From Siphlonurus alternatus (Eukaryota; Arthropoda; Insecta; Ephemeroptera; Siphlonuridae), in assembly GCA_949825025.1 (NCBI GenBank), contig OX463784.1, forward strand, positions 2,195,168 through 2,259,167: a stretch of 64,000 nt of DNA, in the 5' to 3' direction. Below, one piece after another: positions 12,040-63,315 of this stretch (positions are counted from its first letter, which is position 1; every line of letters starts with the position of its first letter). The notes below the pieces were generated by a model. That model was not told where the DNA came from. It searched no databases and saw nothing but the letters and a program-made list of their open reading frames with translations. The position numbers and the translations under genes are program-made.

Positions 12040-26031
<13,992 letters not shown>

Positions 26032-27640: not shown

Positions 27641-27785
27641 TGGGATTTTTTTTTTTTTTTTTAATTTTGTGTGTGTGCGTGTGTGAAGCTATATGAGTTG
27701 AAAATTTTTGGTTTTCATTTTTTCAATTGGGGCCGGTTAAACTATTTTCAGAAAATTAAATCTAAAAAAAAAAAAAAAAAAAGAG

Positions 27786-28263
27786 AAGGAAGGAAGGAAG
27801 GAAGGAAGGAAGGAAGGAAGGAAGGAAGGAAGGAAGGAAGGAAGGAAGGAAGGAAGGAAGGAAGGAAGGAAGGAAGGAAGGAAGGAAGGAAGGAAGGAAG
27901 GAAGGAAGGAAGGAAGGAAGGAAGGAAGGAAGGAAGGAAGGAAGGAAGGAAGGAAGGAAGGAAGGAAGGAAGGAAGGAAGGAAGGAAGGAAGGAAGGAAG
28001 GAAGGAAGGAAGGAAGGAAGGAAGGAAGGAAGGAAGGAAGGAAGGAAGGAAGGAAGGAAGGAAGGAAGGAAGGAAGGAAGGAAGGAAGGAAGGAAGGAAG
28101 GAAGGAAGGAAGGAAGGAAGGAAGGAAGGAAGGAAGGAAGGAAGGAAGGAAGGAAGGAAGGAAGGAAGGAAGGAAGGAAGGAAGGAAGGAAGGAAGGAAG
28201 GAAGGAAGGAAGGAAGGAAGGAAGGAAGGAAGGAAGGAAGGAAGGAAGGAAGGAAGGAAGGAA
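27786..28263. repeat. (GGAA)n microsatellite, about 119 units
   Basis: An essentially uninterrupted 478-bp GGAA/TTCC run after an A-tract. It encodes spurious KEGR or FLPS repeats in several frames. Confidence 0.95.
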
Positions 28264-28722
28264 AAAAAATATGCAATCGCTCATTCTACTTAAACAATAC
28301 CTATATTGTTTTTATTTGGGATGTATGCAAATGCGAACACTGAAAAACACAAACAATTCTTACTAAATAAAGTAAATCTAACGTAAGTTGAGCTCATTTT
28401 TAGTAAGCAGGTTAAGAATACATGCAAAATGTATGAAATTTTAATTTATTATGTAGATGATGTAAATATATTTTTCTTTCTATTCTAAATATTAAAGAAA
28501 AAGTGTCTACTCCCTTTCAACTGCAAAATAAAATATGATACTTAGTCACAGTAAAAATTTAGCAAAAGGAAATGCATTTCCTTTGCAAAAAATGACCTTA
28601 TTTAAATATTAATAAATAACAATTGAAGTCAATTCATACATGACAGAATATAGCATTAGCATTTGTATAAAAGATAAAAGTTATGTTTTTTATTAAAATA
28701 TTAAATAAAATAAGTTTTTAAA
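28264..28722. other. Spacer
   Basis: AT-rich, nothing recognised. Confidence 0.5.
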
Positions 28723-28729
28723 AGTCATG

Positions 28730-29993
28730 ATTGATTGATTGGTTTGTATTTTGGGGCAATTGACACATGTTGGTCATATATGCCCCTCAGTTCAGCCTTT
28801 TTTAGGGCTGGAATTTTTCTTTGTTGTTGTGTCTATGTTCCTTCCTGTTCGATGTTGTAGTCGCAACAGTTTCTCGTATACTTCTGTTCACAGCACCCGT
28901 CGGAGGTTCACCTCATTGGTAAACTCCAGGATGCGCTGCACTGCCTCCTCGTTATTTGCGAGGATCTGCTTTATTGTGCCTGGATCTGCTTTATTGTGCC
29001 TGTAATTTTGCATGCTCTTCTTTCTTCTGCGTAGTGGAGACAGTCAGTGAGGATATGGTTCACTGTCAGTTCCTCTGCGCAGGTTGCACACATTGGAGGT
29101 GCTTCCCTTTCCATGAGATGGCTGTGTGTCAGCCAGGTATGTCCAATTCGCAGTCTGGCGAGGATAACCTCGTCTCTGCGGTTCTTTCTGTTGCTTGATT
29201 GCCAAGGGCATGGTTTGTCCTTGATATTTCTGAGTTTGTTATCGTTTGTGACCTCCTGCCACGTCACTTCCCATCTCCTTCTCACATCGAGATGTAGAGA
29301 ATTGCGGAGGTCATCTGAAGTGATCTCCTCCGAATCCCAATCCTCTTTCTCAGAGGCACGCTTTGCTGCTTGGTCTGCCGCTTCGTTACCGGGGATTCTG
29401 GCGTGGCCGGGCACCCAGAGGAACAATACGGACTTGTTTTGGTTCTCCAGCTGGTAGAGACACTCTTGGATGTTCTTTGCCAGCGGGTTTTTTGGGAACG
29501 TTTGGGAGATGGTCTGTAGGCTACTTAATGAGTCCGAGCAAACCATAATGTATCTGTCGTCTCGCTGCATGCAGCGTTCAAGGGCTTTCCAGATGGCGTA
29601 CATTTCTGACGAGAAGACACTTGTCTGTTCTCTCAGGCAGTACCCGCGCTCCTCGTTACCAATGACGAAGGCACAGCCAACGTCGTCATCCTTTTTCGAA
29701 CCATCAGTGAAGATCAGAGTGAAGTCTTTGTACTGCTCTATGACCTCCGAGTAGATGCCCCTATAGAATAGGGGGTCTGTTGTTTCTTTTTTGTTGTTTG
29801 CCAGGTCAAGTCTCACGTGCGGTCGTGGGATTTTCCACGGGGCTATGTGGCTTAGTTCCTGGCGGTAGGTATGTGGGGTGTTGTGGATGCCCAGTTCCCT
29901 TCTGAGCTCTTTCCACCTGATGCCCACCGGCCTTGTTGCTCTGTTTCTGATTTCGTATTTGTGGTTGTACCTTGGTCTGAAGTCAGTACGTGT
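28730..29993 (-). mobile_element. 5'-truncated I-like LINE copy
   Basis: The sequence is nearly identical to the 3' part of the LINE at 59459-64000. The 3' end (low coordinate) is ATTGATTGG-type sequence. The copy is flanked by a 7-bp direct repeat AGTCATG at 28723-28729 and 29994-30000, the expected target duplication. About 10 bp of unmatched filler sits at the truncated end, as is common in LINE 5' truncations. Young, given the near identity. Confidence 0.9.
28971..29993 (-). pseudogene. Truncated LINE ORF2: RNase H and C-terminal zinc motif
   Basis: The reading frame covers the RNase H domain (FTDGSKKDDD, SSEMYAIWKALE, CSDSLSSL, GNEAADQAAK) and a C-terminal Cys/His motif (CATCAEEL...DCLHY). 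A 20-bp tandem duplication (28962-28981 and 28982-29001) shifts the frame near the end, so the last residues of the intact copy are lost. No endonuclease or RT is present. This is a dead fragment. Confidence 0.85.
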
Positions 29994-30574
29994 AGTCATG
30001 CACGTTGTCATTTCTATAGAGCTCTGTACAGCTATTAAATTGTCATAATATTAATACATTATATTTGGTGTGCAGTGTGCAATCTGTTTAATAATATAGC
30101 ATGTAAAATAGAATAGTTAAGTCATCAATGGACAACATACATGAAAAAAATTTATTGCAGAAATGAATAGATGGTACCAAATTATGCTACTCTGATTTTT
30201 TTCAGATTTTTTTGAAACCCGGAACTATTTTTAAATAATTATTTAAAATCTTGTGATTTCAGTTGGCAACCCTGCAGCCTTAATAAATAGGATAGAGACT
30301 GGACGCCTATTGACGCCTCCAGGGGGCGTGGCCGCACATGCAATAATTATTTAAAAATAGTCCTGGGTTTCAAAAAAATCTAAAAGAATTCATTGATTGA
30401 TTGATTTATATTTTGGGGCAATTGACACATTTTGGTCATGTATGCCCCCAGCGCGGCCTTTAAGAGACCGCAGATTTTTGACTGTTTCCCATATGGGATT
30501 TTATTTCTTTGTTTATTGTGTCTATGTTTTGATTTTCTTTGTTTTTCTCGTTTCTTTTCTTTGTTTGTTTCTGT

Positions 30575-33500
30575 TTACAGCTCTCTTCGTAGGTTCGCCT
30601 TAGTGGTGAACTCTAAGATGCGCTGCACTGCTTCCTCGTCGTTTGCGAGAACCTCTTTAGTGGAGCCTGTCATTTTGCAGGTCCTTCTTTCTTCCACGTA
30701 GTGGCGACAGTCCATGAGGATGTGGTCCACTGTCAGTTCTTCGGCACAGGTTGCACACAGAGGAGGGGCTTCGTGCTCCATGAGGTGGCCGTGTGTCAGC
30801 CTGGTGTGTCCGATGCGCAGTCTGGCGAGGATGACCTCGTCCCTGCGGTTCTTTCTGTAGCTGGTCTGCCATGCGCGTGGCATTTCCTTGATGTTCCGCA
30901 GTTTGTTGTCATATGTGACCTCTTGCCACGATGCTTCCCATCTCCTTTGGATGTCCAGTTGTAGCGAGTTGCGGAGGTCGTCTGATGTGATCTCCTCCGA
31001 GTCCCAGTCCTCTTTCTCAGAGGCTCGCTTTGCGGCTTTGTCTGCAGCCTCATTTCCAGGGATTCCAGCATGGCCGGGTACCCAGAGGAAAGAGACGTAT
31101 TTGTCCTGGTTCGCCAACTGGTAGAGACAATCTTGGATTTTCTTTGCCAGTGGATTCTTGGGGAATGTTTTCTCAATTGTCTGGAGGCTACTGAGGGAGT
31201 CGGTACAGATCATAATGGATCTGTCGTCTCTTTCCAAACAGTGCTCGAGAGCTTTCCAGATGGCGTACATTTCTGATGTGAATACACTTGTTTGCTCACG
31301 CAGGCAGTATCCATGTTCTTCGTTGTTGATGACGAAGGCACAACCAACGTCATCGTCCTTCTTTGAGCCGTCGGTGAAGACCAGAGTGTAGTCTCTGTAC
31401 TGGTCTATCACTTCTGAGTAAATGCCCCTGTAGAGTAAGGGGTCTGTACTGTCTTTTTTGTTGTTTGCCAGGTCAAGTCTCCCGCGTGGGCGTGGAATTT
31501 TCCACGGTGCAATCGAGCTTGGTACCTGGTTGTACACAGCGGGGAGATAGTGGATTCCCAGGTCTCCTGTGAGAAGTTCCCTCGCCCGGATGCCCAGAGG
31601 CCTTGTTGTTTTATGTCTTTGGAGGTATTTATTCCTGTGCTTTGGTTTGAAGACGCACTCGAATGTTGTGTGCTGTGGCTTGCTAAGAAGACTCGCGATG
31701 TAGTTGCAAGTTAGCAAGTCTCGCCTGCTCTTGAGTGGTGGTTCTCCAGCCTCTGCACAGAGGCTTTCTATTGGGCTAGAGCGAAATGCTCCTGTGGCCA
31801 GCCTCAGTCCAGTGTTGTGGACTGGGTCAAGCGTTTTGATATATGACGGTCTAGCTGAGTTGTAGATTATTGCTCCATAGTCTAGCTTGGAACGAACCAG
31901 GGCCCGATAGAGTCGTAAGAGTACCACTCGGTCAGCACCATAGGACTTTCCACTCAGGACACGGAGTAGGTTAAGTGGCTGTTGGCATTTTGCCTTCAGG
32001 CTTCTAAGATGGGGCCTCCACGACAATTTGCTGTCGAAAATGAGTCCCAGAAAGCGGACAGTATCAGAGCATGGGATCGGAATTCCTCCCATCTGGAGCT
32101 CAGGCTCTGGTTGCACAAGTGGACCACAGTGGTTTTCTGCGCAGAGAATTTGAATCCGTTGGATCTGCTCCACCTGAACAGTTTGTTGATGCACATTTGA
32201 AGTTGTCGTTGAGCCGTCCTCAGAAGTTTTGCTGCGCAGTAGATGATGAAGTCATCCACATACAGTGAACTCCTGATGGGGTGACTGACATTGCGAACGA
32301 TGCTGTTGATCGCCACAGCGAACAATGTTACACTCAGCACCGATCCTTGGGGGACGCCAGTCTCCTGGGCTCGTTGATCAGAGATGGTGTTACCAACACG
32401 TACTGAAAAGACTCGGTCCTTCATGAACTCTCGGATGAAGACTGGCATGTGACCGCGCAGTCCCCATTCATGGAGGGTCTTGAGTATTCCGTGTCTCCAG
32501 GTCGTGTCGTAAGCCTTTTCTATGTCGAAAGACACGGCAACGAGGTGTTCTTTGTTGAGGTAGGCGTTCTGGATCTCGTTTTCGAGTTTCACCAGGTTGT
32601 CGGTAGTAGAGCGATGTTGTCTGAACCCACATTGCTCATTGGAGAGAAGGTCATGTTTTTCAGCGAACCACACCAGGCGCTTGTTGACCATTCTTTCCAT
32701 CACTTTGCACAGGACAGAAGTGAGGGCGATTGGGCGGTAGCTCTTCGGATCGATTTTGTTTTTGCCGGTTTTGTAGATCGGGATGACGATGGCTTTTTTC
32801 CACAGTTGTGGGAAAATGCCTTCGAGCCAGATTCGGTTGTACATCTGGAGAAGTTGAACAGACGCTTGATTGTTCAGGTGTCGTAACATCTCTATGTGGA
32901 TTTGGGCTTGGCCAGGAGCTGAGCTCTTGGCATCTTTGAGTGCTGCCTCCATCTCCCACATGGTGAAAGGATGATTGTAGTCCAGGTCTTCTCTTGTGGA
33001 GAAGTCGGGTGGTCTACTCTCTGCCCTGTCCTTGTGAGGGATGAATGCTGGGTCATAGTTAGTTGGGTCTGAGATTGAGGAGAATGTGTCTGCCAGAATG
33101 TTAGACACTGCCTCTGGTGTTGTCTCTATTACTCCATTGACTTCAAGAGCAGGGATGGCCATGCATGTGCTCTTTCCATCAATTTTGCGGATCTTGTCCC
33201 AGACTTCCTTGACAGGAGTCGTGGAGTTGACTGAAGATACGTAGCTTTGCCAGGAGGCCTTCTTTGCCTCCCTGATAATTTGTCTTGCGTTGGCTCGGCA
33301 TATTCGGAACCATTCGACATTTTCTGGTGTTGGGCGTTTCTTGCATCGTCGGAGTGCTCTCCTACGCTCTCGGATCGCCTCTTTGCATTCTGTTGTCCAC
33401 CAGGGCACTGGTATTTTCCCAGGCCTGGTGTTTGTCTGTGGGATGGTGTCCAAAGCTGCCGCCAAAAGTGCGTTGGTAAATGCTTCCACCATTTCGTCTA

Positions 33501-34251
33501 TTCCCTGAGTGGGATCCCACGGGACCTGGGCTTGCTCAGTGTATCTGGGCCAGTCAGCTTTATCAAGGCGCCACTTTGGTGCACGCTCTTGTCGTATTTC
33601 ATTTTCTAACATTTCTGTTACTATTGGGTAGTGGTCACTACCATAGGTGTCATCGTATGCTCGCCACTCCAGTTGGGGAGCAAGTCGTGTAGTGCAGATG
33701 GTCAAATCAATTGCAGAGTGCGTGCCAGTAGCCATCGTCACATGTGTTGGTTCTCCTGTGTTGAGGATGGTGAGGCTCTCGATGTTCACAAACTGCTCAA
33801 GTATACGCCCTCGCTGGTCGATGCGGTCACATCCCCAGACGGTGTTGTGAGCGTTCAAATCTCCCAAGAGGATGTACGGCTTGGGGAGTTGGTGCACAAG
33901 GGCAACGATCTGCTGTTGTGTTACATTTACATTCGGTGGAAGATATACGTTGCAGATGCATACCTTGTGAGGAATGAGCATCTGCACCGCAACTACTTGA
34001 AGTTCCGTGACTAGTGGCACTTCCTGCGAGAAGGCGTCATTGCGAGCAAATGTCGCGACTCCCCCACAGGCAATGTCGCCATCCACGTAGTCTTTTCTGT
34101 AGCATGTGTAATTCTTCAATTTTGCATCTTGTGTAGGCTTAAGCCTAGTTTCCTGTAAGCAAATGGCAAGAGGGTTATTCTGGGACATGAGAAGGCTCAG
34201 GCCTTCACGTTGTCTGTAAAAACCGTTCATATTCCATTGAAGGGTAGCCAT
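30575..34251 (-). pseudogene. LINE ORF2 (endonuclease-RT-RNase H), frameshifted
   Basis: The first part (34251 to about 32115) holds an APE-type endonuclease (LQWNMNG, GDLNAHN, GSDHYPI) and RT motifs (FDIEKAYD, GVPQGSVL, YVDD). The frame then shifts through a small deletion near 32115. The other frame carries the rest: FLGLIFDSKLSW, RNase H (FTDGSKKDDD, TSEMYAIWKALE, GNEAADKAAK) and a C-terminal CATC/H/C motif, to the stop at 30575. The RT motif APGPDQ of the intact relative is APGQAQ here. Inactive as it stands. Confidence 0.85.
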
Positions 34252-34260
34252 TGGAAGTTC

Positions 34261-35703
34261 TTATGGTTTGGGAGGGGTTTTAGCCCCAACCTTAGTTGCT
34301 GTTTGTGTTAACTTTTTCTGACTCTTGCCAGCGTTTGCATCGTATTTCTTTTTGTCCTCCAGGAATTGTTTCCCGGGTGGTAGTATTGGCTTTCGTTCTG
34401 GTTTCTTCGAAGATGTATTAATCGATCCAGAGGTACGAGGGGCCTTTAGTTTGGGTTCTTGCTGTGCAGCTGGAGCAGAGATTGTTTCTTGCTCTTCTTG
34501 CATTTCTGCAGTTTCAGGAGCAATTTGCTCCGCTTTTTTCTGTTCGGAAGAAGTTGAGGGTTTATCTGTCACCTCTTTAGCTTCCGGTGTCGTGAGGAGC
34601 GGCTGCTCTACTCCAGACTGGCTTTCGGTGTCCATGTTTTCAGACTCGCTGAACACGCGGACTTCTTGGTTTCTGCGGCGTCTTAGACGCTTCTGCTTTC
34701 TTTCCTCCTCTTGCTCGGACTCTTGAGATTCTTGAGGGGTTTGGTCAGTTGCCTGACGTTTTTTCAGCCTTTGGGCAGATAACACCTGCGTAGGTATCAT
34801 CTGCTTCTTTGGTTCTTGTTGTTTCTGTTCTTGCTCTGTGTTCTTTCCTTGTTGGCGTTTTCCTTTGAGAACTGCCTTCGCGAAAGTATTCACCAGAGCT
34901 GGGGTGTTTTCTCTCAGCTTAGCCTGGGCGGCACGGTAGCTGATTTTGTCCAAGACCATGTATTCTTGGATTTTGAGCTCTTCTTTGTATCGTGGGCAGT
35001 TTCTAGACCAAGATACGTGCTTTCCCTTGCAGTTTACACAGCTCTGCTCAGCTGTGCAGTTGTCTTCATGTTTTTTGCTGCCGCACTTGCCGCAGACTTC
35101 GTCCACTCTACACACTTTGCTGGTGTGTCCGAATTTCTGGCATTTGTAGCAGCGCATAGGATTTGGAATGTAAGCTCGTACCTTCAAGAAAAATCTGGCG
35201 ATTTGTATCTTTTCCGGCAGAACTGTTTGGTCAAATGTTAGAATGTAGTTCTCGGTGGGGACCAGTTCATTGCCCTTACGTTTCTTGATCTGGGTAACTT
35301 CAGTTAACTTGTATTCTTTCAGCTCCTCCTTGATGTCCTCCAGTGTTGATTGCATCAGGCCAGAGCATGAGATTATTCCCTTTGTTTGATTTAGGGAGCG
35401 ATGTGCCTCGACTGTGACTGAGGTTTCTCCAAGGTTTTTCACTGTTAAGATCTTTCGGGACTGATCATCCGAGATTGTTTCTACGAGGATGGATCCGTCT
35501 TTCAATGTTTGTTAGCTTTTGGGTTGGCCAAAAGCTAACATCATATTGCGGTGGAGACGGATTGCACACAGCTTATCCAGTCTTTCACCTTGCACATTAC
35601 ATTTTATGGTGAGGTATGTAGGGGCCTCCCTCCCCTCCCTGAGCCGGTTGTCGTGAGAGAACGTGAGTTCTCGCCACGCTGGTCGCTTGCTCCTCTTCGA
35701 CAT
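34261..35703 (-). pseudogene. LINE ORF1 (gag-like, CCHC), in-frame stop
   Basis: The frame opens at the ATG at 35703 and is interrupted by a TAA at 35512-35514. It continues in the same frame to the stop at 34261, about 480 codons in all. Visible parts: a basic N-terminus, then three Cys/His knuckles (CYKCQKFGHTSKVC; CGKCGSKKHEDNC; CVNCKGKHVSWSRNC), then a Gln/Glu/Lys-rich, probably disordered tail. Such proteins bind the element RNA and form the ribonucleoprotein. A later ATG at 35505 could start a shorter product that keeps the knuckles. Confidence 0.85.
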
Positions 35704-37900: not shown

Positions 37901-39646
37901 ATGACACCAGACATGAAGGTGAGAAACTGTACAGCTTGTGTCACCCGCCTCATCATATTAAGATGAACGGTGGCGAAGCAAATCTCATAAGAAAATAAAA
38001 TTAATTTTAGACGCCATAGCTTTAATCTGCATATTAAAAAATAAACTCACGAAAATTAAATATTTTAACATTTAAATGGAATTCTATTTGTTTTTCATCA
38101 ATTTTGTTAAACCAAAAATTAAGTAATAAATTTTAAGAGCAAAATTATTGATCTAATATTATAGTCAATATTTAAGCAAACATTAGGCAAAATTGCTACC
38201 TCATGACGATAGTCAATTCATCAATTTCACTATTTTTTTAATGAAACCTGGGTTGCTACAAATTAAACCGTAGAATATATATTATCAATAAGCTAATTTT
38301 TCACCTAATTTACATGTACGTACTTAGTAAAATAATAAAAATAAATAAAATGCAATACAACTGCAGCCCATTTATTAGTTTTATTTATTTTTTGGATATT
38401 ATTTGGTGCATTTATTCAATTTATAACATAACGCAAGTATAATATGCAGCTGTTTAAACATCAATCGTTAAGCAAAGGGCGATTTTAAATAATTGTATCC
38501 CCTATATTTCAAATTTCAACTAGTTCTCATATAGGCTTTTAAAATTGCAACACTTATTATTATTATGATTACTAAACTTATTTCATTTGGCTGTGTTAAT
38601 GCATCTAGATTTTAATGGACTAACAAATCAAGTATGATATAATATTAATAAGGTGCAATTCATGACAAAATCATCAAGTTTCTCACGAAACTTAAGATAA
38701 GTGCCAGAACTATAAAATTAACTTTAGTATGCTTAATTATTCATGTTTTTTAATATCCTTCAGTTTTCTTTAACAAATCCAACGTTTTAATTCCATGCAG
38801 AACATTAAAATATTACAATTTTAATGTATCGTTTATTGTTTTTAATAAAACCATGTAGGCAACTAAGGAGTTAAAGCAACTGTGGCAGAAACGAAAATTC
38901 CATTATATTGCGGGTTTTAAAAGAATTCTTGCAATGGAGCATACAAGTTATTGAGAATTATCGTTCTCCTAGCAGCACGGCTAAATGAATTAAAATTGAA
39001 AACATGTTTTACATTTGACCAGAAAAATCATTGTAGTCTATTCTAAATTATATTTTGAGTCAAGTTTGAAGAAATTAACTGTAACCATATTTTCATATTT
39101 GTGCAGGTGGCTGCTTTTTTGCTGGCGGTGCTTGCAATGAGCGTGATAGCGGCTCCACAAGGAGGTGGAAGGAAACCCCCAACTTCCCAAAATGGTGGTG
39201 GACAGAACGACCAACAACAGGAAGGCTCCCCTCAACAAGGAGGTCAGAATGGCAAACAAGGAGTGCCTCAACAAGGAGGTCAGAATACCCAGCAACAAGG
39301 AGGACCCCAGCACGGAGGTCAGAACGGCCAGCAACAAGGTGGTCCTCAGCAGGGAGGTCAGAACGGCCAGCAACAAGGAGTGCCTCAACAAGGAGGTCAG
39401 AATACCCAGCAACAAGGAGTGCCTCAACAGGAGGGTCAGAGTGACCAGAAACAAGAAAGGCCTCAAAAGGCCGGTCAGAGTGTCCAGAAATATGGAGGTC
39501 TTCAACAGAGAGGTCAGAGTGACCAGAAACAAGGAAGGCTTCAACATGGAGGTCAGGATGGTTCTTCTGAAGATACTAAACAAAATAAGTCACGTCAGAA
39601 GAATAACTTTAAATTTCATTATACGTTTACTGCACTGAAAATATAA
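37901..39646 (+). CDS. Secreted Gln/Gly-rich 13-residue-repeat protein, 2 exons, 185 aa
   Basis: Exon 1 is 37901-37918 (MTPDMK, donor AAG|GTGAGA, phase 0). Exon 2 is 39107-39646 (acceptor TATTTGTGCAG). The joined start MTPDMKVAAFLLAVLAMSVI is a clear signal peptide, with cleavage probably after Ala-Ala. The mature protein has about eight to nine 13-residue units of the type GGPQQGGQNGQQQ (coding period 39 nt). These are exact in the middle and drift toward a charged form (GQSDQKQ) and a basic C-terminus. A low-complexity secreted protein of this kind could be structural (cuticle, silk, saliva or secretion matrix) or antimicrobial-like; I cannot tell which. Intron 1 (37919-39106) shows no mobile element. 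Confidence 0.8.
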
Positions 39647-47972: not shown

Positions 47973-48332
47973 AGGGTAAGATAACGCCACCAATGTTAAA
48001 AAAAATCTCTCACACAAAAATTATGATTTTTTTTTAAAATGTTCTCCTCTACACACCCTATATATCAGTAGCTAAAAAATCAGGTATACAAAATCGAGCT
48101 AGTTTTTGAGTTATCAATTTTTAAAATTGACTACTTTAACATGGAGAAATGGAACTTCCATGTTAAATTAGTCAGCTTTAGAAATTCATAACTCAAAAAC
48201 TATAAGATCCAATTTGTATACCTGATATTTTAGCTACTGATATATAGGGTGTGTAGAGGAGAACATTTCAATTTTTTTCATAATTTTCGTGTGAGGGATT
48301 TTTTTTAACATTGGTGGAGTTATCTTACCCTC
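47973..48332. repeat. F1 foldback MITE, full length
   Basis: Left end AAGGGTAAGATAACGCCACC, right end GGTGGAGTTATCTTACCCT. The ends share GGGTAAGATAAC with F2, showing that F1 and F2 have one type of terminus. Confidence 0.85.
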
Positions 48333-51945: not shown

Positions 51946-52545
51946 GAAAAAACAGAGAAGTAATTCAATTATTTAAATAATTTGAAATTTAACGTTGCAT
52001 CGTACAGACTACAGAATAAAGTTTAAAAAGAGCGATTTTGATGTGTTACCATATTATATTATTTGCGTATAATTTAAATCACACTTAAGGTAGAGATAAT
52101 ACGGATCAGCTGGCCCAGCCAATGCTAAAAAAATCCCATTCATAAAAATTATAAAAAAAAATTAAAAATGTTCTCTTCTACATCCCCTATCAGTAGGTAA
52201 AATATCAGGTATACAAAAACGAGTTATATTTTCGAGTCATTCATTTTTTCAGCTCTCTAATTTAACATGGTGAAATGGAACTTCCATGTTACATTAGTCA
52301 TATGCAACTTTAAAAATTAATGACTTGAAAACACCTGGCAGCACCTGGAAGGTTAAGTTTTACTTGTATCTGCTCTCTTGAAGAAAATTAGTTTTTTGTT
52401 TGTATGTTGTGAATTTTTACCATTTGTTTTTATTTTATTTGATTTGTGAATATATTATTTGTGTTTTTTGTACATAAGTGAGGCTATACATACTGTTGTG
52501 TAGTGATAACTAACCAAATAAGTGGCTTGGTGCTCTGGCACAAAA

Positions 52546-54509
52546 ATGGCGTTCTCAACTACCTATGGAGGATTTCCACCGTTGCCTCGATCTCAAGGTT
52601 TTGTGAGTTCTCCTCCACCACGCTGGGTACCAAATAACGATCATAGAATAAATGAAGTCAACAATGCTAATACTAATTTCTCATTACCTGATAATTCTCA
52701 AACAAATTTTATCTCGCACCCTATGTTTATATCTATGCAAAAAGATATTAAACATTTATTGACAGGAATGTCAAACTTAAACGAGATAGTTCATGAATTG
52801 AGAAGAAATAGAAATCCTGATAATAACACAAATTTGTCTAATAATTATGTGACAAATCATGATCACCATAATGCACATCGTCAAGAGAGCGTGGCGCGAC
52901 CTCGGTCTCGTGCGGATCGTGTTCCTAGCAGGCAACAAGAGCAAACATTTCAGCAGCGGCCACCACCACGTGCATTCCAGCCGCCTCACCGTATGTTTGC
53001 ATCTCAGGGTCGTCCACCGTTGCCGCTGAGAAATTCCTTCGATCAGCTGAGTAGTATAAACAAAACTGACCTACCTCAGCACAGACGTCAATTTTATAAT
53101 CATGAAAATGTTCCAATCATGGTTAAAAATTATGAAAAACACCAAAACTTTAAGTTTTTAGAAAAAAGAGGAAACATGTTTAATGCTCCTCCTGGAGTGT
53201 CGTTCGCACATTGTGTGGACGAAAAATTTTCTATGTCTCGTGGTGTAGCTAAACACGTGAAAATAACTTACAAGGAAGTGCCGTTCTTAAGGAGCCAGTT
53301 AAAACAAACTGGAGAAGTAGCTGTCCTCCAGGCAGATGGTCGTCATATATTCTATTTAGTCACCAAAGAAAGAGCAAATCTTCATCATCAATGGAAAGTT
53401 TTGTCTCTTCATTGAAAAATCTACGTAAGGCATGTGAGATATTACAAATAACGCATTTGGCTATTCCACGGCTGGGATGTGGAAGAGATCGTCTACTTTG
53501 GCGTGATGTAAAAAAACATATAATTTCTATATTCAAAGACATGAATATAGTAATCACTGCTTATTATGACTGGAAATCTGAAGAGAATGAAACATCACCC
53601 AAGGAATTGATGTTAGAGGAAACTCGCGCCACACCACTAGTAATCACCAAAACTAGTGTCCCTCCCACCCCGGCGACCCATGCTGTCCATGCGAGACCCA
53701 CCACCTCTGTAGTGAGTACCCGATCTTTCACTGCCACGTCTGGCACGGTAGAGTCGGAGGGGTCGTCGGTGCCAACTGCAGCAAAGCTGCAGAAGCCTGA
53801 GCTGAGGTCGGACATCGTGCCGGTGATCAACGGGAGTCCGGGCGAGGAGGTTCCCGCCCTTGTGCCTGAGAACGACGGCCCCCCACCCTCACTTATCCCC
53901 GAGTGTCGTGTGGTGAACAACGTTCCACCTGCGCAGGACCACAGGCGCTACGTGGCAAACAACACCTCGTCCGCGCTGGCCACTGAGCGCGAGACGATGA
54001 ACGACAACTCGCTTGCACTTGATCCAGAGCGCACGGCGAGCAACAAAGGTTCGTCCCCGGCTCGAAATATTGGGGCTGGAGGTGTGCTTACTCCACCTTT
54101 GAACAGTGCTGAGAACTGGTCAAGGGAAGTAAGAAGTGGCAGATTAGGTACGCATATCGTTAACAGTTTAAGTGCACTTAAATATATGGAGGATTCCGTT
54201 CCTAAAGATTCATCAAATATTGTTAAGCCTTTAGCTTTGCTGGCATCAAATAAAATTAATTCTATGCTCACTTACTTGTGGAGGGAATTTGAATTATTTA
54301 AGAAGAATAGTGCCAAGTGTGAAATAGTAATCAATAGTGGTGAGGTTTTACCTCAAAATGATAGTCAGAGCGAGATTTCTTCTGATAATTTAATACGGAC
54401 GAGATCTCAAACCTTGAGCAATGTCTCACAACAAAGGCCTAAATATAAAAAAAACATAGTGCTAATCATAGCGCTGTTACTTTTAGTAAATTTCGGATTT
54501 TGCAATTAA
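52546..54509 (+). CDS. LINE ORF1: macro domain, Pro/Ser/Thr linker, hydrophobic tail (1-nt frameshift in this copy)
   Basis: ATG at 52546 (AAAAATGGCG, good context). Order: low-complexity N-terminus (Pro, Asn, Arg-rich, about 200 aa); a TARG1/OARD1-like macro domain (53149-53573); a GC-rich linker rich in Pro, Thr, Ser and Glu; a helical segment (IVNSLSALKYMEDSVP onward); and a C-terminal hydrophobic stretch NIVLIIALLLLVNFGFC resembling a membrane anchor. The frame breaks at about 53392-53395, where one base is missing: one frame stops at 53415, the other carries on to 54509. The break falls inside the macro fold and both sides align with it, so it is a lesion of this copy, not a gene boundary. 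There are no CCHC knuckles, unlike the other LINEs here. Confidence 0.8.
53149..53573 (+). other. Macro domain (TARG1/OARD1-like ADP-ribosyl hydrolase type)
   Basis: Landmarks in order: SFAHCVDEKFSMSRGVA (adenine and phosphate-binding loop; the family has AHCxxxxxxMGxGIA), GEVAVLQADGRHIFYLVTK (family GEVAVLxxDGRYIYYLITK) and PRLGCGRDRLLW (family PRIGCGxDRLxW). The two catalytic residues of TARG1, a Lys after I-T and an Asp in GCGxDR, are present here as the Lys in LVTK and the Asp in GCGRDR. About 142 residues against about 150 in the stand-alone enzyme. The enzymes remove ADP-ribose from Glu/Asp. The similarity is judged by eye but is long and ordered. Confidence 0.85.
54449..54455 (+). promoter_or_regulatory. 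Candidate -1 ribosomal frameshift site A AAA AAC
   Basis: In the ORF1 frame the codons are AAA AAA AAC, so the heptamer is in the correct phase for tandem -1 slippage. A -1 shift enters ORF2 directly. The ORF2 frame has a stop (TAA at 54446) immediately before the heptamer. Downstream, a small hairpin (AGTGC 54458-54462 with GCGCT 54471-54475) or a longer stem (54473-54486 with 54528-54542) could stimulate slippage. Confidence 0.7.
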
Positions 54510-57457
54510 ATATCCCAGGATTGACAACTAAAGTTAAACAGCTTGAATTATTGATTGAAAGTGAAAAAGCTGATATAGTAGTAATTTGTGAACATGGTTT
54601 GTCACTTTCTGAAATTAATATTATATCTTTTAAAAATTATGTATTAATATCTTCTTTTTCCAGGGTAATTAAAAAATGTGGGGGTGTTGCTATATTTATT
54701 AGCAGAAAATTATCAGGTGAGAATATAAAAATTCAATCTATTCAACATTGTTTCGAATGTTGTATTGCTAAAATAAAAATTGGAAAAAATCAAAATATTT
54801 ATGTAGCTTCATTATATAGACCACCAGATAATTTAAATAATAAAATTAAACTAAAAATAAGTGGAAATGAGGTAATTTTTGACTCTAATATGAAACCATT
54901 TTTTATTAAGCTTGAACAGTTATGCAAATTTTTTTTAAATACATGTAACATAAATGACTCATTTTTAATAACTGGAGATATTAATATAAATGTTTTGAAA
55001 AAAAGTCAACATTTACACTCTTATTTGGATTTGTTAGAATCCTATAATTTAACTATATTAAACAATAATGCAACAAGAGAAACTGATAAATCATGCACTC
55101 TTATTGATCATGTAATATCAAATAAACAATTTTTCAACTCACTAAAAACTATTACAACTGACACGGAGCTCTCTGATCATAAATTTACTTTAATAGACAT
55201 TTCAATTTTAAATGCTTGTGGACAAAATAAAATTTTAAATAATAGTTATACTATCAGAGACTGTAACTCAGAAAACATGGACTATTTACTGAAATTACTT
55301 ATTAAAGAAGATTGGGCACTTATATTGAATAATAATGTGAATTCTGAAGAAAGATGGGAATCTTTTTTTGAAATATTTTTATCACTATTCAATGAAGCTT
55401 GCCCTCGTAAATTAATAAATAAAAAAAACATCATAAATGCTCCCAACTGGATAAAAAAAAATCCTCAATTAGTTGCAGAAAGTCGTGTTTTAAGACTTCT
55501 CTGTAAGGAAGTTAAAGCTAATCCATTACTCTCAGTTACGTACAAAGAAAAATTAAAAAGTCATAGATTTAATACATCAAAAGCTAGAATTATGGGTAAT
55601 GATAATTATATCAATAACGCTAATAATAAAATTAAAGCAGCATGGGAAGTTATTAAACGTGACTGTAATTTAAAACCTCCTAAGAACTTAATTACAACAG
55701 AACTCTTAGTTGAGGGAAATTTTATTACGGATCCTGTTGAGATAAGTAATGCATTTAATAATTATTTCATAACAACTGTTGAAAATATGATAATAATGAA
55801 ATATCCTCAACCAAGTAATAAATTTTTAATATCAAATCAGAATAGGATAAATAATTGGAATAATAATCAATTTAGTTTTCAGCAAATAATTCCTGATTAT
55901 ATTCTTAAAGTATTAAAATCACTACCAAATAAAAATGCTGCAGGCCCTGATGAAGTGCCTTACACAGCATTAAAATATTGTGCCGAGGTGTTAACGGTCC
56001 CTTTAACATCATTAATAAACCATTCAATTTCTGATGCCATTTTTCCTACGATTTTAAAGAAATCTGTTGTTAACCCTCTAATCAAAGATAGAAAAGGTTC
56101 GATTAATTTATTAAATAACGATAGGGCTATTTCATCATCGTCAGTATTTGGTAAAGTATTTGAAAAAGTTTTGGACGATCAGATAATGGATTATAGAGTG
56201 GATAATAAATTAATCTCAAACTGTGAACATGGATTTTTAAAAAATAAATCCACAACAACTGCAGCATATGCACTGCTGAATCCAATTTATAAAAATTTGG
56301 ATAATAAAAAGTTCTGTTTAGCATTATTTTTTGATCTGTCCAAAGCATTTGATAGTATTGATAAAAATGTTTTATTAACTAAATTATCCTCTCTTGGATG
56401 TGATTCAAATAGTTTAATTATGTTGCAGTCTTATCTTTCTGATCGGCAACAATACGTAAAACTTGGTAATACGAAATCTTCCACCAGGCCTATATCACTA
56501 GGTGTGCCTCAGGGTGGAAAATTTTCTCCTACCCTCTTTAGTGTAGGAACCAATGATTTGTCAGAAAATGTTACTTTTGCTGACATTGTAAAATTTGCGG
56601 ATGATACGACTGCAATAGTGTCAGCAGATACTGAAGAAGAATTAATTTTTAAGGCTATTGGTACAGTAAAAGAGGTTGAATCTTGGTGTCTAAATAACAG
56701 ATTAATTTTGAATACCAATAAAACTTTTTTTATCCAATTTCACTCGCAAAGGAAGGAACTCGATCATAGTTGTCGCATAAAATCAGAATCAGGACTAATT
56801 AAAAGGGTCCAGTATATTAAATTTCTTGGGCTAAGCATACATGAGTCCATGGATTGGAGTATTCATATTGAAGAAATTTGTAAAAAAATCAATCAGGCTA
56901 ATTTTGTTCTTTATTTGCTAAGGGATAGTGTATCACAAGATACATTACTTTCATTTTATTATGCTCATGTTTACTCCCATTTGGCTTATGGAATTATTTT
57001 TTGGGGTAGTTATCCAAGTCATCTAAATAGACTTTTTGTCTTACAAAAGCGTGCTCTTAGGACAATTTTGCGTTTTAAAAAGCATGATTCATGCGTCAGC
57101 CATTTCAAAAAACTTCAAATGTTAACATTGCCTAGTTTATATATACTAAATTGTGCTCTTTTTAAAAAAAAATACCCAGAATTATATACACATAATAATG
57201 AATTGCACTCTTATAATACAAGAAATAAAGAAAAAATAGCTTTAGAAGTGCATAACTCAAGTTTTTTGGAAAAAAGTTCTGCTTATCAGACATCTAAAAT
57301 TTATGACTTTTTACCATCGTGTCTGAGAGAGGTGGAAAATATTAAATTATTTAAAGAAAAATTAAAACAAATACTTATTAACAAAGAGTTTTATTCTGTA
57401 AAGATGTTTTTTAGCAATAAGTTGCCTGAAGATATATTGTCTAGTGTGATTTTCTAA
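54455..57457 (+). CDS. LINE ORF2: endonuclease and reverse transcriptase, no own ATG
   Basis: Open from the slippery site to the stop at 57457, about 1,000 codons. The N-terminal APE-type endonuclease shows LQLNIPG, a catalytic-type Glu in ICEHG, YRPP, GDININ, LIDHV and SDHK. The RT shows AAGPDEVPY, FFDLSKAFDS, GVPQGGKFSPTLF, FADDTTA and FLGLSIHE. The C-terminal region has YGIIFWG, LQKRALR and HSYNTRNK, typical of the FADD-type LINE group. No RNase H. The first codons after the slip (HSAVTFSKFR) lead straight into the endonuclease, and no ATG precedes it, so it is probably a fusion product with ORF1. No internal stop is seen, so the enzyme part of this copy looks intact. Confidence 0.9.
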   Translation, partial: HSANHSAVTFSKFRILQLNIPGLTTKVKQLELLIESEKADIVVICEHGLSLSEINIISFKNYVLISSFSRVIKKCGGVAIFISRKLSGENIKIQSIQHCFECCIAKIKIGKNQNIYVASLYRPPDNLNNKIKLKISGNEVIFDSNMKPFFIKLEQLCKFFLNTCNINDSFLITGDININVLKKSQHLHSYLDLLESYNLTILNNNATRETDKSCTLIDHVISNKQFFNSLKTITTDTELSDHKFTLIDISILNACGQNKILNNSYTIRDCNSENMDYLLKLLIKEDWALILNNNVNSEERWESFFEIFLSLFNEACPRKLINKKNIINAPNWIKKNPQLVAESRVLRLLCKEVKANPLLSVTYKEKLKSHRFNTSKARIMGNDNYINNANNKIKAAWEVIKRDCNLKPPKNLITTELLVEGNFITDPVEISNAFNNYFITTVENMIIMKYPQPSNKFLISNQNRINNWNNNQFSFQQIIPDYILKVLKSLPNKNAAGPDEVPYTALKYCAEVLTVPLTSLINHSISDAIFPTILKKSVVNPLIKDRKGSINLLNNDRAISSSSVFGKVFEKVLDDQIMDYRVDNKLISNCEHGFLKNKSTTTAAYALLNPIYKNLDNKKFCLALFFDLSKAFDSIDKNVLLTKLSSLGCDSNSLIMLQSYLSDRQQYVKLGNTKSSTRPISLGVPQGGKFSPTLFSVGTNDLSENVTFADIVKFADDTTAIVSADTEEELIFKAIGTVKEVESWCLNNRLILNTNKTFFIQFHSQRKELDHSCRIKSESGLIKRVQYIKFLGLSIHESMDWSIHIEEICKKINQANFVLYLLRDSVSQDTLLSFYYAHVYSHLAYGIIFWGSYPSHLNRLFVLQKRALRTILRFKKHDSCVSHFKKLQMLTLPSLYILNCALFKKKYPELYTHNNELHSYNTRNKEKIALEVHNSSFLEKSSAYQTSKIYDFLPSCLREVENIKLFKEKLKQILINKEFYSVKMFFSNKLPEDILSSVIF

Positions 57458-57783
57458 ATATTTTTGTATAAATAATTAATATTAATTATATTTGCCAGGT
57501 TATTAGTAAACTGTTAGTATTATATTATGTTTGTTGTAAAGTGTTTTAGTGTTTGTTTGTTATATTTTGTAAAATGACGTAATCCATGTTGTACTTGTAC
57601 ATCCAGTGATTAAATAAATGAATTGAATTGAATTGAATTGAAAACTAACTCGTTTTTGTACACCTGATTTTTTACCTACTGATAGGGGATGTAGAAGAGA
57701 ATATTTTTATTTTTTTTTTCATAATTTTTATGAATGGGATTATTTAGCATTGGGCCAGCTGATCCGTGTTATCTCTACCTTAA

Positions 57784-59616: not shown

Positions 59617-62600
59617 TCACAGCACCCGTCGGAGGTTCGCCTCATTGGTGAACTCCAGGATGCACTGCACTGCCTCCTCGTTATTTGCGAGGATCTGCTT
59701 TATTGTGCCTGTTATTTTGCATGCTCTTCTTTCTTCTGCGTAGTGGAGACAGTCAGTGAGGATATGGTTCACTGTCAGTTCCTCTGCGCAGGTTGCACAC
59801 ATTGGGGGTGCTTCCCTTTCCATGAGATGGCTGTGTGTCAGCCAGGTGTGTCCGATTCGCAGTCTGGCGAGGATAACCTCGTCTCTGCGGTTCTTTCTGT
59901 TGCTTGATTGCCAAGGGCATGGTTTGTCCTTGATATTTCTGAGTTTGTTATCGTTTGTGACCTCCTGCCACGTCACTTCCCATCTCCTTCTCACATCGAG
60001 ATGTAGAGAATTGCGGAGATCATCTGAAGTGATCTCCTCCGAATCCCAATCCTCTTTCTCAGAGGCACGCTTTGCTGCTTGGTCTGCCGCTTCGTTTCCG
60101 GGGATTCCGGCGTGGCCGGGCACCCAGAGGAACAATACGGACTTGTTTTGGTTCTCCAGCTGGTAGAGACACTCTTGGATGTTCTTTGCCAGCGGGTTTT
60201 TTGGGAACGTTTGGGAGATGGTCTGTAGGCTACTTAATGAGTCCGTGCAAACCATAATGTATCTGTCGTCTCGCTGCATGCAGCGTTCAAGGGCTTTCCA
60301 GATGGCGTACATTTCTGACGAGAAGACACTTGTCTGTTCTCTCAGGCAGTACCCGTGCTCCTCGTTACCAATGACGAAGGCACAGCCAACGTCGTCATCC
60401 TTTTTCGAACCATCAGTGAAGATCAGAGTGAATTCTTTGTACTGCTCTATGACCTCCGAGTAGATGCCCCTATAGAGTAGGGTGTCTGTTGTTTCTTTTT
60501 TGTTGTTTGCCAGGTCAAGTCTCACGTGCGGCCGTGGGATTTTCCACGGGGCTATGTTGCTTGGTTCCTGGCGGTAGGTATGTGGGATGTTGTGGATGCC
60601 CAGTTCCCTTCTGAGCTCTTTCCACCTGATGCCCACCGGCCTTGTTGCTCTGTTTCTGATTTCGTATTTGTGGTCGTACCTTGGTCTGAAGACGCACTCG
60701 TAGGTAGTATGTCGTGGCTTGCTACGAAGACTTGCTACGTAGTTGCAAGTCAGCAGGTCACGCCTACTCTGGAGTGGTGGCTCACCGGCCTCGGCATAGA
60801 GACTTTCGACTGGGCTAGAGCGGAAGGCTCCTGTTGCCAGCCTCAGTCCTGTGTTGTGTACTGGGTCAAGAATCTTTATATAAGACGGTCTTGCCGAATT
60901 GTAGATGATAGCTCCGTAGTCAAGTATGGAGCGCACTAGGGCCCTGTAGAGTCGGAGAAGCATGACTCGGTCGGCGCCGTAGGATTTTCCACTCAAAACT
61001 CGGAGTAGGTTGAGAGGTTGTTGACATCTTGTTTTTAGGCTTCGTAGGTGGGGTTTCCATGACAGTTTGCTGTCGAAAATTAGTCCCAGGAAGCGGAAAG
61101 TTTCTGAGCATTGGATTGGTGTTCCTCCCATTTGGAGATCAGGCTGTGGATGCACACCACGTAGTCTGTGGAAATGGACCATGGTGGTTTTCTGTGCAGA
61201 AAATTTGAAACCGTTGATGGTGCTCCATCTAAAAAGATTGTTGATGCATAGTTGGAGTTGTCTTTGTGCCGTCCTGAGGAGTTTCGCTGTGCAGTAGATG
61301 ATGAAGTCATCCACATATAGCGAGCTCTTGACGGGGAGATTGACGTTCAGGACGATGCTGTTGATGGCCACTGCGAACAGAGTGACGCTCAGCACTGATC
61401 CCTGGGGGACGCCTGTCTCCTGGGTTCGTTGGTGGGAGAGGGTGTTGCCGACGCGCACCGAGAAGGCACGGTCCTTCATAAATTCCCGGATGAAGACTGG
61501 CATTTTGCCGCGCAGTCCCCACTCATGGAGGGTGTTGAGGATTCCGTGTCTCCAGGTCGTGTCGTAGGCCTTTTCCATGTCAAATGACACGGCAATAAGA
61601 TGTTCTTTGTTTAAGAAGGCGTTCTGGATCTCGCTTTCCAGCTTCACCAGATTGTCTGTGGTAGAGCGGTGTTGCCGGAAACCGCATTGCTCGTTGGCAA
61701 ATAGGTTTTGTTTTTCGGCGAACCACACCAGGCGCCTGTTGACCATTCTCTCCATCACTTTGCATACGACGGAGGTTAGGGCAATGGGGCGGTAGCTCTT
61801 TGGGTCAGTTTTGTTTTTTCCGGTTTTGTAGATCGGGATCACGATGGCCCTCCGCCACTGTTGTGGGAAGGTGCCCTTGAGCCAGATTCGATTGTACATT
61901 TGCAGGAGATATAGGGACGCCTGACTGTTTAAATGTCGCAGCATCTCTATATGAATTTGGTCAGGGCCTGGAGCTGAGCTCTTGGCCTCTTTTAGAGCTG
62001 TTTCCATCTCCCACATTGAGAAGGGGTCGTTATAGTCCCTGTCTTCTCTTGTGGAGAAATCTGGAGGTCTACGTTCGGCCCTCTCCTTGTGGGGGATGAA
62101 AGTTGGGTTGTAGTTGTTTGGGTCTGAGATTGAGGCGAAGCTGTCTGCTAAGATGTTCGACACTTCCTCAGGAGTTGTTTCTATTCTTCCGTTGACTTCC
62201 AGAGCAGGGATTGCAGAGCAAATGCTCTTTCCATCAATTTTGCGGATCTTGTCCCATACCTCCTTGACTGGTGTCGAGGAATTTATTGAAGATACATATT
62301 TTAGCCAGGAGGCCTTTTTTGCCTCCCTGATGATTCTTCTTGCTTTGGCTCGGCAGATGCGGAACCGTTCGACGTTTTCTGCAGTTGGGCGATTTTTGCA
62401 TCTTCGTAGCGCTGCCCTGCGCTCCCGAATCGCCTCTTTGCACTCTGGTGTCCACCAGGGCACAGGAATTTTTCCCGGCCTAGTGTCAGTTTGTGGGATG
62501 GAGTCCAACGCTGCTTGAAGGAGTGCGTTGGTGAAGGCCTCCACCATTTCGTCTATGGTCTGAGTTGGGTCCCACGGGACCTGAGCTAGCTCAGTGTACC

Positions 62601-63306
62601 GGGTCCAGTCAGCTTTGTCAAGGCGCCATCTTGGGGCTCTCTCTTGTCTAATTTCATTGTTTAGTATTTCAGTGACGATTGGGTAGTGGTCACTACCGTG
62701 CGTGTCGTCACATGCTCGCCACTCCAGTTGGGGGGCGAGTTGAGTGGAACAGATGGTTAGATCGATTGCCGAGTGAGTTCCTGTAGCCATCGTAACATGT
62801 GTGGGTTCCCCCGTGTTGAGGATGGTGAGGTTCTCGAGGTTCACAAACTGCCCAAGCATACGTCCTCTCGGGTCGTCGCGCTCACATCCCCAGATGTTGT
62901 TGTGAGCGTTGACGTCTCCCACGAGGATATACGGCCTGGGAAGCTGGTGAGTCAGGGCAGCGATCTGTTGTTGTGAGACATTAGTATTTGGTGGTAGGTA
63001 GATGTTGCAGATGCAAACCCTGTGAGGGGTAAGCACCTCTACTGCTACCGCTTGCAGAACTGTGACTAGAGGCACTTGTTGTGAGAAGTAGTCGTTTCGA
63101 ATAAACGTCGCGACTCCACCACAGGCGATGTCCCCGTCCAGATAATCTTTTCTGTAAGTTGTAAAATTCTTTAGTTCTGCCCTTTGATTGGGCTTGAGTC
63201 TAGATTCTTGGAGGCACACTGCAAATGGATTGTTTCGAGACATGAGCAGGCTGAGGCCTTCTCGTTGTCTATAGAAACCGTTGCAATTCCATTGTAGGAT
63301 AGCCAT
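59617..63306 (-). CDS. LINE ORF2: endonuclease, reverse transcriptase, RNase H, zinc motif; intact, 1,229 aa
   Basis: The N-terminal APE-like endonuclease (about 1-230) has LQWNCNG, CLQESRL, VGDVNAHN and GSDHYP. The RT (about 440-760) has APGPDQIH, FDMEKAYD, GVPQGSVLS, SLYVDDF and FLGLIFDS. RNase H type I (about 955-1085) has FTDGSKKDD, SSEMYAIWKALE, CTDSLSSL and GNEAADQ: the D-E-D-D set is complete. The C-terminal Cys/His motif (CATCAEEL, H, DCLHY) is a likely zinc finger. The protein cuts target DNA, copies the element RNA on site and can remove it from the hybrid. The start is ATG at 63306, 9 nt after ORF1, suggesting re-initiation. No lesion seen. Confidence 0.95.
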   Translation of the reverse strand: MAILQWNCNGFYRQREGLSLLMSRNNPFAVCLQESRLKPNQRAELKNFTTYRKDYLDGDIACGGVATFIRNDYFSQQVPLVTVLQAVAVEVLTPHRVCICNIYLPPNTNVSQQQIAALTHQLPRPYILVGDVNAHNNIWGCERDDPRGRMLGQFVNLENLTILNTGEPTHVTMATGTHSAIDLTICSTQLAPQLEWRACDDTHGSDHYPIVTEILNNEIRQERAPRWRLDKADWTRYTELAQVPWDPTQTIDEMVEAFTNALLQAALDSIPQTDTRPGKIPVPWWTPECKEAIRERRAALRRCKNRPTAENVERFRICRAKARRIIREAKKASWLKYVSSINSSTPVKEVWDKIRKIDGKSICSAIPALEVNGRIETTPEEVSNILADSFASISDPNNYNPTFIPHKERAERRPPDFSTREDRDYNDPFSMWEMETALKEAKSSAPGPDQIHIEMLRHLNSQASLYLLQMYNRIWLKGTFPQQWRRAIVIPIYKTGKNKTDPKSYRPIALTSVVCKVMERMVNRRLVWFAEKQNLFANEQCGFRQHRSTTDNLVKLESEIQNAFLNKEHLIAVSFDMEKAYDTTWRHGILNTLHEWGLRGKMPVFIREFMKDRAFSVRVGNTLSHQRTQETGVPQGSVLSVTLFAVAINSIVLNVNLPVKSSLYVDDFIIYCTAKLLRTAQRQLQLCINNLFRWSTINGFKFSAQKTTMVHFHRLRGVHPQPDLQMGGTPIQCSETFRFLGLIFDSKLSWKPHLRSLKTRCQQPLNLLRVLSGKSYGADRVMLLRLYRALVRSILDYGAIIYNSARPSYIKILDPVHNTGLRLATGAFRSSPVESLYAEAGEPPLQSRRDLLTCNYVASLRSKPRHTTYECVFRPRYDHKYEIRNRATRPVGIRWKELRRELGIHNIPHTYRQEPSNIAPWKIPRPHVRLDLANNKKETTDTLLYRGIYSEVIEQYKEFTLIFTDGSKKDDDVGCAFVIGNEEHGYCLREQTSVFSSEMYAIWKALERCMQRDDRYIMVCTDSLSSLQTISQTFPKNPLAKNIQECLYQLENQNKSVLFLWVPGHAGIPGNEAADQAAKRASEKEDWDSEEITSDDLRNSLHLDVRRRWEVTWQEVTNDNKLRNIKDKPCPWQSSNRKNRRDEVILARLRIGHTWLTHSHLMEREAPPMCATCAEELTVNHILTDCLHYAEERRACKITGTIKQILANNEEAVQCILEFTNEANLRRVL

Positions 63307-63315
63307 TGAGTTGGG

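Follow-up and report, generated by a model that had tools for sequence, protein, structure and literature searches.

The window analysed here is a stretch of 64,000 nucleotides from Siphlonurus alternatus (Ephemeroptera; contig OX463784.1, positions 2,195,168 to 2,259,167 of the forward strand). It contains a full-length long interspersed nuclear element (LINE) whose first open reading frame (ORF1) encodes a complete macrodomain of the TARG1/OARD1 type, with both residues of the catalytic Lys/Asp pair, and is followed by a second open reading frame (ORF2). A single frame shift divides the macrodomain into a first half in reading frame A and a second half in reading frame B, and the positions of these and the other features of the element are collected in Table 1.

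A macrodomain within ORF1 of a bounded LINE

The identity of the domain is established by its match to human OARD1. When the frame A and frame B halves are joined manually with one X at the junction, the joined macrodomain aligns with human OARD1 (4j5r) at 100 bits and an expectation value (E) of 9.1e-28, ungapped across 133 positions (query 6-138; phmmer). Each half also finds the family on its own: residues 199-279 of the frame A reading frame (P0001; 52,546-53,415) match OARD1 chains with an E of 2.8e-13, and the frame B reading frame (P0002; 53,253-54,509) matches the remaining part of the same chains with an E of 7e-8. The NCBIfam model of DarG, another ALC1-like hydrolase, matches P0002 as well (E 3.2e-11; 43.1 bits, with a cut-off of 250), and does not match P0001. 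The Pfam Macro model, which is generic and not specific to the TARG1-type (ALC1-like) subgroup, gives the joined domain 18.5 bits (E 0.002), below the curated cut-off of 22 bits, and taken separately P0002 reaches 11.9 bits (E 0.23) and P0001 has no match. The same model scores the relative P0005 at 34.3 bits and lamprey OARD1 at 25.6 bits, and by this lower score the LINE macrodomain is more diverged than either of them.

The edges of the LINE could be fixed because the insertion hit a palindromic repeat of which three insert-free copies, at 2-292, 13,450-13,785, and 47,990-48,314, are present in the window and match the joined flanks. The joined flanks align without a gap at the insertion point to either orientation of the copy at 2-292 and to the reversed copy ending at 48,036; against the forward copy at 47,990 there is a 3-nt gap a few bases past the insertion point, and against the copy at 13,450 a 5-nt gap exactly at it. 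These boundaries refute the alternative that a host TARG1-like gene or pseudogene lies beside LINE fragments, as the domain resides within one insertion with a target duplication and unoccupied sites. Only the existence of TARG1 genes in animals speaks for that alternative, and against it stands as well the long reading frame, overlapping ORF2, in which the domain is found; we consider it very improbable indeed.

An earlier note on this DNA, which was made from the sequence alone, had described a TARG1-type macrodomain at 53149..53573 in ORF1 of a LINE with clean boundaries, and had reported its catalytic Lys and Asp as kept. The homology indeed spans about 53,149 to 53,573, the OARD1 match bears out the assignment, the target duplication and the three unoccupied repeat copies delimit the element, and alignment with 71 relatives places both catalytic codons within the domain. 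On the profile check that the earlier note had proposed, the outcome is divided: the significant match to OARD1 removes the objection that there is no macro hit, but the Pfam Macro model by itself stays below its cut-off.

Table 1. Features of the LINE and of its macrodomain, with positions in the 64,000-nucleotide window (UTR, untranslated region).
Feature	Position	Strand	Basis or remark
Left target-site duplication, TTGAAAAC	52325..52332	+	6 bp (GAAAAC) certain; 8 bp counting the TT shared with the tail
Full-length LINE (non-LTR retrotransposon; LTR, long terminal repeat), 5.3 kb, in a palindromic repeat	52333..57639	+	unoccupied repeat copies; (GAATT)n 3' tail
5' UTR	52333..52545	+	
ORF1, frame A: N-terminal part rich in Asn, Pro, and Arg (residues 1-200), then the first macrodomain half	52546..53376	+	
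TARG1/OARD1-type macrodomain	53149..53573	+	homology of both frames; reading frame switches between 53374 and 53381
Asn codon at the Asp position of the GD motif	53173..53175	+	Asp in 57/71 relatives
Lys84-equivalent codon	53365..53367	+	alignment with relatives
ORF1, frame B: second macrodomain half, GC-rich Ser/Thr/Pro linker, C-terminal part, hydrophobic tail, stop	53379..54509	+	
Asp125-equivalent codon	53487..53489	+	alignment with relatives
A AAA AAC at the opening of the ORF2 frame, a possible slippery heptamer for a -1 shift	54449..54455	+	
ORF2 (endonuclease and reverse transcriptase), stop-free over 1002 codons	54449..57457	+	
3' UTR and (GAATT)n tail	57458..57639	+	
Right target-site duplication	57638..57645	+	first two bases common to the repeat tail

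Conserved residues and relatives of the macrodomain

Enzymes of the TARG1 kind take ADP-ribose off proteins and DNA. TARG1 acts through a catalytic dyad of Lys84 and Asp125 (PMC9411070, PMC7050489); residue 125 is written as Glu in PMC7050489 and as Asp in PMC9411070 and PMC5087735. The residues of the LINE domain were compared with those of 71 relatives, comprising 69 proteins and the two domains of the metagenome protein P0004. The position of Lys84 is occupied by Lys in 66 of these and that of Asp125 by Asp in 64, and the LINE domain carries Lys and Asp, respectively, together with the Gly-Cys-Gly loop. Asp125 is absent from DarG and SCO6735, and SCO6735, which lacks both residues of the dyad, nevertheless cleaves (PMC9411070); the dyad is therefore a marker of the TARG1 type and not of activity as such. 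The likeness to TARG1/OARD1/C6orf130, an ALC1-like hydrolase, extends over the whole domain as ungapped homology and includes both the dyad and the loop. The removal of ADP-ribosylation, which the earlier note had inferred as the function, is plausible. The LINE domain differs from TARG1 in residing in an ORF1, in the replacement of the Asp of the GD motif by Asn and of a Gly in the next motif by Ser, and in its long branch.

Conservation was assessed on 46 background rows out of 72; the other 26, which were set aside, were the row of the LINE itself, the four closest to it, 12 that were partial or truncated, and nine near-identical ones. The LINE retains 19/26 of the columns that are at least 90% conserved, 20/31 of those conserved at 60-90%, 12/22 at 40-60%, and 13/59 below 40%. 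Because retention rises with column conservation, the changes in the LINE domain spare the conserved sites. This column-retention test is a weak proxy, as selection is not directly measurable from one copy, and part of the pattern may predate any capture.

The whole-domain identity of the LINE macrodomain is 46% at best (to P0006) and 43% to the second domain of P0004, rising with the latter to 57% across 70 residues. In a tree of 51 of the 72 rows, whose bootstrap had not settled, the LINE domain groups with P0004 domain 2 (91/88, not starred); the LINE branch measures 2.02, and its position is flagged as unsure. These low identities and the long branch favour a long residence or rapid evolution over a fresh capture, in a comparison from which the host TARG1 is absent. 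P0004 is a protein of 676 residues with two TARG1-type domains, the second of which, the tentative tree neighbour, shares with the LINE domain the same Asn and an SMSRG motif. Its domains are arranged in tandem and are followed by Arg-rich repeats; in contrast to the LINE, it has no LINE-like part, and outside the macrodomains it has no significant match to the ORF1 frames. Of the at least 90% conserved columns, its second domain keeps 19/26, like the LINE, and its first domain 20/26. The first domain has Asn at the Asp125 position. Among the other relatives, P0033 and P0034, both from the leafhopper Macrosteles quadrilineatus, are TARG1-like proteins that closely resemble each other and have the motif changed to ASRG; they are possibly multi-copy.

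The remainder of the element and the window

ORF1 does not fit any of the LINE ORF1 types I-IV: no Pfam family of the CCHC, RRM, Transposase_22, PHD, or esterase kind is found in P0001 or P0002 at E values up to 1. The C-terminal part, folded alone, gives helices only, with a mean pLDDT (predicted local distance difference test) of 53, which is too poor for a fold search. The region that follows the macrodomain, at 53600-54099, is a GC-rich block (57-65% GC in 200-nt windows), compared with 34-40% in the macrodomain, 32-36% at 54,100-54,499, and a lesser rise to 47-52% at 52,800-53,099; the block is perhaps of another origin. Read without a shift, ORF1 closes with a tail that is strongly hydrophobic (54456-54506), with a 15-residue mean hydropathy of 2.96.

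ORF2 matches the Pfam model RVT_1 above its cut-off (E 2.5e-26) and Exo_endo_phos with an E of 1.9e-4 (21.7 bits, with a cut-off of 24.5), and it has no Pfam match to RNase H. It aligns over its full length to 11 endonuclease-reverse transcriptase (EN-RT) proteins at 29-32% identity. A protein search that scored only those candidates sharing most words returned 216 matches among 7,986 scored candidates; the best 120 of the 216 have at most 35% identity, the best full-length match has 32%, and no near relative of ORF2 is found among these best 120, nearly all of which are unnamed proteins. An EN-RT that lacks RNase H, in a layout of two ORFs, fits the CR1/L2 group, and the LINE is probably CR1/L2-like. 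In viral contigs, the ORF2 query returned one stretch and the query with the N-terminal macrodomain half none, and a macrodomain alignment query returned 33 stretches; none of these is a relative. An ORF2 alignment query of the viral contigs returned 77 stretches, including nine loci that align at 23-47% identity across part of the reverse transcriptase (RT). In prokaryote contigs, the ORF2 query returned five stretches, none of them a relative.

The two reading frames overlap by 61 nt (54449-54509), and ORF2 has no ATG before residue 148, which lies well inside the endonuclease. At the opening of the ORF2 frame, the heptamer A AAA AAC stands in the right phase, as read from the coordinates, for a -1 shift out of ORF1, so that programmed -1 frameshifting is a possible route from ORF1 into ORF2. 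The overlap contains two in-frame heptamers, with 0.35 expected from the rate in the window; one more is found in frame B outside the overlap and one in frame A. The fold downstream of the heptamer is unremarkable, with a z of -1.56 and 16/200 shuffles equally stable. The plainer alternative is a lost start codon, because the relatives often begin near the opening of ORF2 with a Met that is absent from the examined element. The hydrophobic tail of ORF1 resembles a membrane anchor, and a -1 shift would swap this tail for ORF2. A genuine shift would yield a minority product that combines the macrodomain and the EN-RT in one chain.

Elsewhere in the window, other LINE copies lie on the reverse strand (59617-63315, 28971-34260, and 34261-35511), with an ORF2 of EN-RT-RNase H and a CCHC-type ORF1 (domains assigned by eye), and they are 79-98% alike over the in-register stretches that were compared. 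A long AAGG-type microsatellite at 27741-28343 is open in several frames on both strands, and at 39059-39646 a 39-bp tandem repeat lies in a Gln/Gly-rich reading frame whose start, by eye, resembles a secretion signal. There is no Rfam match at gathering score across the 64-kb window.

Possible role at the insertion nick and the alternatives

We propose that an EN-RT LINE without RNase H, probably CR1/L2-like, took up the protein-coding portion of a TARG1-like gene, whose source was most likely an animal, and that the macrodomain was kept as an enzymatic module of ORF1, between its Asn/Pro/Arg-rich N-terminal part and its C-terminal part. The ORF1 protein would travel with the element RNA to the site of target-primed reverse transcription, where the macrodomain would take ADP-ribose off those acidic residues and DNA ends or bases that PARPs have modified at the nick, and this removal would keep reverse transcription or second-strand completion unblocked. 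The presence of the domain with its dyad in the ORF1 of a full-length element is shown, in line with the remainder of ORF1 but for the single shift; its expression, activity, substrate, and benefit are steps that we infer. As a whole, this course of capture, retention, and action at the nick seems to us evenly balanced between right and wrong. The further claim that a LINE lineage has an active TARG1-type hydrolase as a standing part of its ORF1, and thereby supplies the integration nick with an ADP-ribosylation eraser of its own, is put forward tentatively, at a little short of that balance. The odds of this proposal and its alternatives are not exclusive, as the eraser step is common to nick management and counter-defence.

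Several observations weigh against a module that the element has kept and uses. Only a single copy of the element was examined, and its ORF1 has one frame change, between 53,374 and 53,381, that falls within the macrodomain and between the codons of the Lys84 and Asp125 equivalents, which thus stand in different reading frames; that the macrodomain is not in one open reading frame applies to the examined copy, not to the domain type. Beyond this single shift, ORF1 and ORF2 are free of stops, and the lesion looks small because the alignment of the joined domain to OARD1 needs no gap at the join; it looks like a recent mutation, or like an error of the assembly next to a short run of A. If the shift is genuine, the examined copy is a descendant that has decayed slightly and whose ORF1 is interrupted within the domain. 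The RT has unusual residues at normally conserved sites, for example GVPQGGKFSPTLF compared with forms like GVPQGSILGPLLF in most of the 11 relatives, which may represent some missense changes or a general decay of the copy. Within the 64-kb window there is no second copy of ORF1, P0001 and P0002 matching only themselves at E values up to 0.01, and none of ORF2, for which only distant RT matches in the other LINEs are found. A LINE-like ORF1 with a macrodomain was not found among 161 candidates of ORF1-like length, the sole match being P0004.

The strongly conserved columns, moreover, are kept less well by the LINE than by the cellular-type rows, of which P0006, P0009, P0033, P0035, and P0013 keep 25 or 26 of 26, P0005 24/26, and P0048 24/27. 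A 13-nt direct near-repeat (12/13 identical; 53,137-53,149 and 53,642-53,654) brackets the macrodomain as a possible insertion scar; this level is reached in 2/300 shuffles of flanks that were selected after the repeat had been noticed. The single copy, the shift within the domain, the relaxed columns, and the bracketing repeat would all fit a passenger, that is, a TARG1-like stretch that entered the ORF1 of one copy by recombination or retroposition and never served the element. The changes, however, spare the conserved columns, and a whole-domain identity of no more than 46% to any protein found leaves no recent capture from a known gene visible, a point that is provisional in a comparison without the host TARG1. 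Removal of the near-repeat spacing, worked out by hand from the coordinates, would also leave frames A and B out of phase, and no poly-A follows the domain. We therefore consider a passenger unlikely, but worth serious weight.

The departures in the first motifs weigh against the proposal as well and bear on what the domain would do. At the GD position, where Asp is found in 57/71 relatives and Asn in 6/71, including the second domain of P0004, the LINE has Asn, and at the next-motif position, where Gly is found in 53/71 and Ser in 11/71, it has Ser. The first-motif Asp contacts adenine; it is common in TARG1-type macrodomains and does not define them. These two replacements, together with the relaxation at conserved columns, would suit a reader, a domain that recognises ADP-ribose without cleaving and guides the particle of ORF1 protein and RNA to breaks at which PARPs are active; members of the ALC1-like class include readers as well as erasers (PMC7050489). 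The TARG1 dyad, of which the LINE keeps both Lys and Asp, would be of little use to a domain that only binds, and a reader in place of an eraser seems rather unlikely to us.

If the domain is an eraser, it may instead strip ADP-ribose that host PARPs put on the RNA, cDNA, or proteins of the element for silencing. Macrodomains of some RNA viruses, as the earlier note points out, are said to act against PARPs, and ZAP is a member of the PARP family; both points lend this counter-defence some credit. Human LINEs are restricted by ZAP (PMC4441479, PMC4423928), and the ADP-ribosylation of transposon-derived RNA has been raised as a possibility (PMC7050489). In human cells, however, L1 nicks are sites of PARP1 and PARP2 assembly, and retrotransposition drops when the two are lost (PMC8535693), so that the erasure of a PARP mark is not plainly helpful to an element. 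PARP1 also co-purifies with ORF2p, and less so with endonuclease or RT mutants (PMC5821459). As PARP1 and PARP2 help human L1 retrotransposition, the management of the nick is favoured over plain counter-defence, which we regard as improbable without being far-fetched.

The combination of a LINE ORF1 with a macrodomain has precedent in its parts. A survey of 448 elements of the Jockey superfamily from 2014 distinguishes five ORF1 types, four with RRM, CCHC, Transposase_22, PHD, or esterase domains and one unclassified (PMC4120745). Because none of the listed domains is found, the ORF1 examined here would belong to the unclassified type V of that scheme, and the main text of the survey does not contain the word "macro". 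Esterase-bearing ORF1s of the CR1 and L2 groups, such as ZfL2-1, likewise have a hydrolase domain within ORF1 (PMC3905857, PMC4120745), but theirs is an SGNH esterase that in the surveyed set is confined to two vertebrate groups. Insect LINEs with a tobamovirus-like helicase (SF1H) have similarly taken up a foreign enzymatic domain (PMC4686597, PMC6338049); there, in contrast, the helicase resides at the C-terminus of ORF2 in R1-clade elements (PMC4686597), and Jockey-family LINEs from other orders are likewise named as carriers (PMC6338049). Epsilon-like endogenous retroviruses of fish are retroelements with a macro-domain ORF (PMC4977317, citing Basta et al. 2009), but they are LTR retroelements with the macro domain in an additional ORF, and the cited sentence gives no macro subtype. 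In its passages on Macro domains, PMC7159879 names them only for prokaryotic conflict systems, and none of the papers listed in searches of the open-licence literature, as judged from titles, the beginnings of abstracts, and selected passages, describes a macrodomain in a LINE. Within this literature, both macro domains in retroelements and other enzymes in LINEs have precedent.

The roles of ORF1 beyond RNA packaging are poorly known, and the bearing of ADP-ribosylation on LINEs at the insertion nick is unsettled. If true, the reading proposed here would establish a new enzymatic kind of ORF1 beside the esterase type and would add a LINE to the agents that carry macrodomains; it would also be a case of an ORF1 that acquired an enzyme, probably one encoded by a host gene. 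A LINE equipped with a TARG1 of its own would, in addition, make the question of ADP-ribosylation at the nick testable by the mutation of one Lys.

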